From Antedon mediterranea (lineage: Eukaryota > Echinodermata > Crinoidea > Comatulida > Antedonidae): 64,000 nucleotides of DNA. The notes under the pieces are model-generated. The model was not told where the DNA came from. It ran no database searches and saw only the letters and a program-made list of their open reading frames with translations. Shown one piece after another: positions 11,780-17,549 of this stretch; position 1 is the stretch's first letter; each line of letters starts with the position of its first letter. The translations under genes and the position numbers were made by a program. Where the stretch lies: NCBI RefSeq assembly GCF_964355755.1, contig NC_092675.1:30900912-30964911 (forward strand), given 5' to 3'.

Positions 11780-14700
11780 AACATGCCTCCTTTCCTGCTG
11801 CAGGTGTCACTGTAAACTTGGCCTGAAAATGAATGTTACGAATTAATTAATGCATGTTTAGTTTAGTAAACATAAAGATAATTAATCTTGTGGTAAATGC
11901 TCATAGATGGATCCGGGGGGGGGGGGGGGGAGGGGCCTAGCAAGACCTAGATTTAGCAATTATACTTCATTTTGAATACTGATACAAGTAAGGATTTACC
12001 TTATTCAAATTAATTGTCTTTATAAAGTCAAAGTAATTTTACTTTTGTTTGTAATTTATTAGTCACTATATTAGTTACATTTGTGTATGTTTTTTAAAAT
12101 AAATAAATATGAAATCCTCATACCTTTGTGAGTTGCTCTGCTATGTGGATTGCAGTTTGAGTGTGCAGTGAGATTGGACCACAAAGTAATCTTGACTGTC
12201 CTTCAGCAAGTGCCATGAATATAATCAACTGGAATAAAGCAAACACATTCACCAACAGTTATACAAAATATACAGACAGTCAGTGCAATTGCTTGGATGA
12301 AATGTACAAAGCTTGGCTACATAAGCAGCTTTTAGACCAACTACCGTATGTTATTTGTACCTTTAAATAAGGTTGATTGGTGTAAAGCTCTGTCAACATT
12401 ATAAAAGTTTATGCGATAAAAATATTTATACATATATGGACACGATGATGTCATATCACTACCATATTTGGACACATTGTCATTTAAAAAAATATCTTTT
12501 TAAATATCAATCCGCTCGCAAAGCATCTTGGGATTTATAGCGGGCATTATTAGAATCGCCTCATTTTTCACATTTTTAACCATTTAAAGACGAAAAAAGT
12601 TATCTCAATAGGATCATAATAGTATAAATTTTTACATTAAATGTAGTTTGCGACCTTAAATTAGATCTAAAAAACGTAGGGAATGGTTAAGTTTGACTAT
12701 TACCTGGTCTTGTAGGTATTCATCAACACATCCTCCATGCTGTATTTCTGCTATCAGGCTTTCTGCCGCATCACTGGCTACTTTCTCGGCTTGAACTCCT
12801 TTAATGTTATTAAACAATAATTCAATTGTATTTAATAAACTGCCAGTGGCTAAAATAATATTAAATTCTTTAAATATGGCAAATAAAGTTAGTATTACCT
12901 CTTTTTCCAAGGCCAGAGCCTCCCAATAGACATCCTGTACTGGTCTCTGCAACAATTCTGTAAGATACAAAATGACAAAACTTTTAACTAATCCTATTGT
13001 ATCTTTATGTTTGAAAGTCGTATAATTTGTTTGTATTGTTTTTAAGAGGGCCTCTTCAAGTCAGCTGTACTGCTGTAGTACAGTTAGAGCTACCCTTGTA
13101 AAACAAAGTTGAATACACAAATCAATAATTGTCCAGTAATCAATAATAGCCAAAATGACGATGTATCTTGTCTCTACTTTTATAAAATCTTCATTTACTT
13201 ACACCAGTTGTTAATTAAGCTTGTACTTACATTATGCCAGTACCATTACCAAGTGCGTCTTGCTCTGTTTCATGTACAACATCGATTTTGACAGGAATAT
13301 TTGGGAATCTCTTTTTCAAAATACTAGTTGCTGTTTTGGACATTGTATCAGCAATCTAGGAAGAAATAAAAACATAAACTTTTAAAATAGTAACTGAAAA
13401 AAACAAAACTTCTTTTGGGCCCGTTCAAAAAGGAGCTTTTACATCCCCACCCTGCACAACTATTTGCTAATTTTCATATAATAAAAATTGATTTAGAAAT
13501 GAAACTTGGGTGTCAATTAGAGACATCACTATCCTCAGATAAAAAGATTTATAAATTTACCCTGGCTGGTAATACACCAGCAACAAAAGCTCGACCAGAA
13601 ATTCTGACAAGATGACCTGGGTCAGTCAGGTTCAGTGGTTTGATACACTTGATTGGTTCACACACAACTGCAATTGATCCACCACCTTTTGGATAATAAC
13701 CTCTGGGAATAAAATGAGCAGTTTAAACACAATGATATGTCTTGAGATTTATAAATTCAAAACCATTTTAAATATAAATAATTATTAGTACAATCTACTA
13801 GCAATGTTTATGGCTTTTGTGCATAAATTTTAAGGATAACTGTGCATTAAAGTATGATACAAATGATTTACCTTCTAATGATATCAGCCTCAAAGTTTAT
13901 TCCGAATCGCTTTGCAATCGGTTGGAATACCTGTTATAAAAGACAAAGTTATTTATTTTACAAATTTAAATGTTCAATGCAATAGCTAAGTGTGTATGTT
14001 AAAGAAACTAGTACAAGTTACCCCGGTGTACTAGTACATCACAGCCACTTATCATAACTGAGCCCTCTGGGAGACCAGTCTTTGACTGAAGAGTTCACCA
14101 AGTAAAAATAAATAATAAATAAAATAGTTGTTACCAGGAGACTGTAATCAATTTGTGGTGCAAATTCGGCATTTGTGCCGCCTTTGAACGTTGCTTGAAT
14201 ACTGCCATCAGCAAACAGCATTACAGGTAAAGACACTTGTAGTAATAAACAGATACTCCTGTAAATTTGATACAATAAATATCATAAATGCATCCAAAAG
14301 ATAAGTCAATTTATTAGCAACAATGGTGGAAACATACTTAAGTATTTAAATAAGAGTGAAACAATCTCTGTTCTTACTTATCTTACCCTGCAGTTTTTGT
14401 GTCTGCCTCATAAGTCCCCTTGCTTACCCTGCAGTTTTTGTGTCTGCCTCATAAGTCCCCTTGCTTACCCTGCAGTTTTTGTGTCTGCCTCATAAGTCCC
14501 CTTGCTTACCCTGCAGTTTTTGTGTCTGCCTCATAAGTCCCCTTGCTTACCCTGCAGTTGTTGTGTCTGCCTCATAAGTTCCCTTGCTTACCCTGCAGTT
14601 TTTGTGTCTGCCTCATAAGTCCCCTTGCTCACCCTGCAGTTTTTGTGTCTGCCTCATAAGTCCCCTTGCTTACCCTGCAGTTTTTGTGTCTGCCTCATAA

Positions 14701-17549: not shown

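Follow-up and report, generated by a model that had tools for sequence, protein, structure and literature searches.

The window analysed here is a 64,000-nucleotide stretch of the Antedon mediterranea genome (contig NC_092675.1, positions 30,900,912 to 30,964,911), and it contains RTCA on the minus strand together with two tandem arrays that adjoin exon ends of this gene. The features are as follows, with positions counted from the first letter of the window.

11727..17549, minus strand: RTCA coding region, 11 exons, 362 amino acids (GT/AG exon chain, intact frame, Pfam, and PDB)
16683..16826, minus strand: exon 3 of RTCA (144 nt, acceptor TTTTTCAG), the final 36 nt of which fall in repeat unit 1 (exon chain)
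16678..16718, minus strand: repeat unit 1, true exon-3 end plus frame-keeping donor GG/GTAAGC (unit reading, protein join)
16679..16681, minus strand: TAA reached immediately when the first donor is bypassed (translation)
14382..16677, minus strand: 56 further 41-bp units, each a copy of exon end plus donor (53 GTAAG, 3 GTGAG; TRF and unit reading)
14259..16682, minus strand: intron 3, 2,424 bp, or 128 bp if the 56 extra units are removed (computed)
14135..14258, minus strand: RTCA exon 4, acceptor AAATTTACAG (exon chain)
11508..11781, minus strand: second RTCA exon-end array, 93-bp unit, 3.0 copies (TRF, read against the terminal exon)

All splice sites in the chain of 11 coding exons are canonical, and the reading frame is unbroken. 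The 362-amino-acid protein matched the Pfam profiles RTC (7e-88) and RTC_insert (6e-31), with both domains fully intact, and solved RNA 3'-terminal phosphate cyclases (RtcA in the PDB) matched it as well. The exon 3/4 join (TAG/SICLLLQ) aligns gap-free to solved RtcA (TAGSITLVLQ), and therefore the conserved protein depends on the first donor. Besides, the 93-bp unit of the second array consists of the last RTCA coding nucleotides (the C-terminal codons), the stop codon, and the start of the 3' UTR. An inverted repeat (AAGGGTCTTTCACACCTGTTC...) with a MITE-like appearance lies at 16925-17140 in intron 2. RTCA is a single locus, and the other RTC-family (PF01137) gene on the same contig, at C6:30.80 Mb, was rejected as an RTCA paralogue for comparison, as it reads as RCL1; this probable RCL1 occupies C6:30798671-30800002 (L004 and L005), about 115 kb from RTCA.

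The exon-3 array was reported by TRF with a period of 41 bp, 57.1 copies, 98% matches, no indels, and a score of 4547, and this score and purity rule out a chance origin. Read unit by unit, it comprises exactly 57 units placed head to tail on the minus strand, the unit being the 36-nt end of exon 3 (CAAGGGGACTTATGAGGCAGACACAAAAACTGCAGG) followed by GTAAG. Unit 1 is continuous with the unique exon, and unit 57 passes into the unique intron (GTAAGATAAGTAAGAAC). We give the span as 14382-16718; TRF gives 14382-16721 owing to AAG microhomology. The initial annotation had cut the unit as 37 nt plus GTAA, a register as valid as 36 nt plus GTAAG given that the flanks share AAG, and its count of some 56 extra exon/donor junctions proved exact, with 56 units beyond the true exon end. 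Only four variant types occur and have spread by copying: 39 units are consensus, 14 carry G7A (one of them also A27C), 3 have GTGAG for GTAAG, and 1 has G17T. Furthermore, units 15-26 equal units 27-38, so that the array contains one 492-bp block of 12 units in two exact copies. With a unit length between 10 and 100 bp, head-to-tail order, and block expansion, the RTCA array is a minisatellite, and intron 3 minus the array (128 bp) resembles the remaining RTCA introns, which measure 100-475 bp.

When the genome was probed with the exon-unit-intron sequence, all 57 matches (57/57) lay at one place, the RTCA array. Thus, the array arose in situ rather than from a dispersed satellite, and its proposed derivation from the exon-3 end and the exon's own donor is borne out by the unit reading and by the single genomic location. 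A dispersed satellite, a transposon-borne sequence, and a mobile unit were all rejected because the unit is confined to this one place. The upstream flank (CACAAG/CAAGGGG) and the downstream flank (GGGTAAG/ATAAG) have AAG in common, which is the microhomology size that would be expected from duplication by slippage or end joining. The array probably started with one microhomology-mediated duplication, with AAG on both sides, over the exon-3/intron-3 junction, and later growth, involving single units as well as multiunit blocks, was probably due to slippage or unequal exchange. Intron gain via tandem duplication was rejected, since the acceptor of intron 3 (AAATTTACAG) is unique and lies outside the array.

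Reading past the true donor gives GGG TAA, an in-frame stop that translation confirmed. It had been predicted that the use of any decoy would yield a truncated product, and indeed donors 2, 3, 4, 10, and 57 each gave 95 amino acids and then a stop, donor 1 being the only frame-keeping site among the donors tried. In a simple duplex calculation, U1 pairing of the exon-3 donor was -8.9 kcal/mol, the strongest in the gene (other RTCA donors, -5.0 to -8.1 kcal/mol), and therefore the decoys are good sites. Structural hiding of the decoys was not apparent in predicted accessibility, which differed in no systematic way and placed donor 1 within the range of the others, in accord with the earlier view that the sites are locally indistinguishable. 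Judging from these predictions, copy 1 bears no local mark, and position alone, as the copy nearest the exon-3 acceptor, would set it apart. The gene can be functional only if this exon-proximal donor wins, which we infer from the intact gene. With copy 57, the intron would return to its former short length, at the cost of an exon of 2,440 nt. A point against exon-proximal choice is that recognition across the intron, with introns of 100-475 bp, would favor copy 57, about 130 bp from the acceptor.

The initial annotation also held that the few donor variants (GTAAGC to GTGAGC) keep the site valid, as if under constraint. Such variants are present, but a single kind of mutation accounts for all three affected copies, and two of these fall within the duplicated 12-unit block; they are therefore uninformative on selection. 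The idea of constraint is not supported, as 1 variant type falls in the 9 donor positions versus 3 in the 32 others, and control arrays also retain GT. The RTCA array, unlike the other arrays compared, was not found via the motif search. In four exon arrays (DHX8, L045, L087, and L088), donor positions were less variable than the rest of the unit. However, presumably nonexonic control arrays picked with the same motif (the first of the C1 list, with 46-bp and 20-bp units, L007-L036, used solely as controls) likewise had conserved donor positions and nearly always kept GT, implying that the conservation in the exon arrays is due to ascertainment by motif. Selection on the decoy donors therefore receives no support, since the controls behave alike.

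The array had been presented as if unique, which was wrong. We found the same anatomy, an exon end and donor repeated into the exon's own intron with the exon-proximal copy on a coding exon, in at least six other genes, at the following loci.

L046 1228-2073 (C1:17776227-17777072): DHX8/PRP22, 37-bp unit, 22-23 copies, exon end TEPPG plus GTAAGTTA
L049: SLC35A-type transporter, 25-bp unit, 10 copies (Pfam Nuc_sug_transp, 1.5e-21)
L048: eIF3L, 29/55-bp unit (a match, with the query padded by three nonaligning residues)
L092 (C11:851825): IFT52, 57-bp unit, about 4 copies (Pfam Itf52_C, 6e-9)
L087 and L088 (C6:30.48 and 30.50 Mb): paralogous signal-peptide first exons of two unnamed genes, 53-bp arrays of about 30 and 17 copies
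L084: unnamed gene, 55-bp unit, 7 copies

These arrays have units of 25-57 bp in about 4-30 copies, compared with 41 bp and 57 copies in RTCA, and intron sequence makes up most of the unit in eIF3L, the SLC35A-type gene, and IFT52. The exons flanking the DHX8 array join to encode a 101-amino-acid peptide that aligns gap-free to human DHX8 (E value, 4e-57). DHX8 is a spliceosome helicase that known organisms cannot do without, and here the gene for this splicing helicase itself bears tens of decoy donors. In IFT52, the true exon-end donor is GTACAT, and a stronger one, GTAAGT, is found in the repeat copies; within the units there is, in addition, TTACAG followed by 16 nt and a donor, resembling a small exon. 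L087 and L088 form a paralogue pair that allows the evolution of arrays to be compared. L045 and L090 may be additional examples, and exon-end position was not established for L047, L081-L083, L085, L086, L089, and L091, or for L050, an intron-internal array that follows an exon of unclear family. In L082 (825-1942; C1:40.90 Mb), a 31-bp unit is repeated 36 times, and in each unit (TTTGTAG/GTTGATACAG/GTAAGT) 10 nt separate an acceptor from a donor. The repeated occurrence in unrelated genes shows that such arrays have been tolerated repeatedly.

We searched the genome for three GGTAAG words spaced 21-51 bp apart, with the reversed word as a control. Tandem GGTAAG was not in excess genome-wide, with 2,879 matches versus 3,927 for the reversed word, and therefore tandem donors are no commoner than minisatellite density predicts. 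A genome-wide attraction of arrays to donors was rejected on the same grounds. As single words, GGTAAG and its reverse had similar counts (24 and 29, respectively) in 84 kb outside large arrays. Eight of the 13 strong-donor arrays (on C1, C4, C6, C9, and C11) lie less than 2 Mb from a contig end (binomial P of about 8e-5), the RTCA array being 0.78 Mb from one. We regard this clustering as usual minisatellite behavior, as human minisatellites are enriched in subtelomeres, at least as outlined in PMC7608644. In addition, tandem repeats make up 20% of the RTCA window versus 1-6% of four 5-kb genome samples.

The anatomy itself is already known from two human genes, ABCA7 and CBS; what is new is that it recurs within a single genome. 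The intron-18 VNTR of ABCA7 adjoins exon 18, and its first two bases are the GT of that exon (PMC5954066). As in RTCA, a tandem repeat sits on an exon and includes its donor, with donor copies extending downstream into the intron, although the ABCA7 unit begins at GT with little or no repeated exon, whereas the RTCA unit has 36 nt of exon. The ABCA7 VNTR is highly polymorphic (25-bp unit, alleles of 315 to 9,711 bp), and canonical splicing persists beside it; retention of one 25-bp unit, a frameshift to a premature stop, occurs at 2 ± 1% independently of VNTR length, and longer VNTRs go with lower expression and more exon-19 skipping (PMC5954066). Unlike ABCA7, RTCA has a stop as its very first out-of-exon codon, and the units of its array are much more alike than those of VNTRs usually are. 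The polymorphic 31-bp VNTR of human CBS, c.1444_1467+7(16_21) (PMC2630376), has, by its name, a unit of 24 exon-end nt and 7 intron nt in 16-21 copies, i.e., the layout of the 36 plus 5 nt of RTCA with fewer copies. CBS 844ins68, a 68-bp duplication of the intron-7/exon-8 junction with normal mRNA, owing to a splicing preference for one copy over the other (PMC2630376), resembles RTCA in that an exon/intron junction is duplicated, but it is a single duplication with no tandem array at an exon end. Drosophila introns gained through tandem duplication of exon segments, as outlined in PMC2891723, share with RTCA a tandem duplication around a splice boundary; in RTCA, however, an existing intron was lengthened, and the gene is explained without a new intron. 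Given that the tandem unit contains exon 3's own 5' splice site and that the exon-proximal copy joins exon 4 in the conserved reading frame, the RTCA array, as judged from one assembly, belongs structurally with the splice-donor-spanning VNTRs of the ABCA7 and CBS type.

Taken together, we consider it quite likely that the array is an ordinary minisatellite seeded by chance on a splice donor and tolerated because the exon-proximal copy is chosen and the whole array leaves with the intron. Splicing would pair the acceptor of exon 3 with the donor closest to it, copy 1. A minor fraction of transcripts is probably spliced at copy 2 or 3, runs into TAA, and undergoes nonsense-mediated decay. If RTCA output is affected at all, this would then be a by-product of length rather than an evolved control. 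The length-dependent drop in ABCA7 expression counts against this reading to the extent that, by analogy, freedom from consequence is not assured for RTCA. Regulation of RTCA output by copy number is possible on the same analogy, and the initial annotation had raised it; in its full form, the number of decoys or the added intron length would set the amount of productive mRNA, through decoy use with nonsense-mediated decay or through exon-4 skipping, and the array would be retained for that reason. This we regard as unlikely. It would agree with the immediate stop after each decoy tried, with the fall in expression and rise in exon-19 skipping in long ABCA7 alleles (PMC5954066), and with reduced CBS activity associated with the 31-bp VNTR, according to the title of Lievers et al. 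2001, referenced in PMC2630376. But the use of ABCA7 decoy donors was unchanged by length (PMC5954066), so any length effect in RTCA may not act through the decoys; donor positions are no more constrained than in the control arrays, and the same kind of array occurs in unrelated genes with no common theme.

It is very unlikely that the array, though real, owes its length or perfection in part to assembly, for instance through the 12-unit block having been entered twice: the exact 492-bp repetition would agree with such an error, yet the variants are interspersed rather than the array being uniform, 2.3 kb falls inside long-read reach, and several other loci share the anatomy, making the phenomenon independent of one assembly piece. 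Least probable of all is that RTCA is hypomorphic or dying, with wrong donors used in most transcripts. Fifty-six donors would compete at a single RTCA locus, the other RTC-family gene, on the same contig, looking like RCL1, but the open reading frame and both Pfam domains are intact, all splice sites are canonical, and DHX8 carries an array of the same kind. The chance-seeded minisatellite thus remains our preferred account. A wider claim, which we hold to be rather unlikely, is that a recurrent class of donor-seeded minisatellites loads genes, including DHX8, with tens of identical strong donors and that array length modulates their output. If this were true, the splicing machinery would have to single out, with high fidelity, the site closest to the exon from among tens of identical ones, a choice that runs against the prediction of recognition across short introns.

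With 57 near-identical donors of which only the first leads to the protein, RTCA offers a natural experiment on 5' splice-site choice. Cross-exon pairing or cotranscriptional commitment would predict the use of copy 1, cross-intron pairing that of copy 57, and equal competition a spread over the array. It is well suited to such a test because the anatomy recurs within the genome, the identical donors are so many, and a stop follows at once. The arrays in unrelated genes serve as replicates in which unit length, copy number, and the strength of the donor vary, and there is a link to the human disease-associated VNTRs of ABCA7 and CBS.

Elsewhere in the window, one satellite of about 100 bp forms two large arrays in opposite orientation, at 35868-36738 and 42062-44363.
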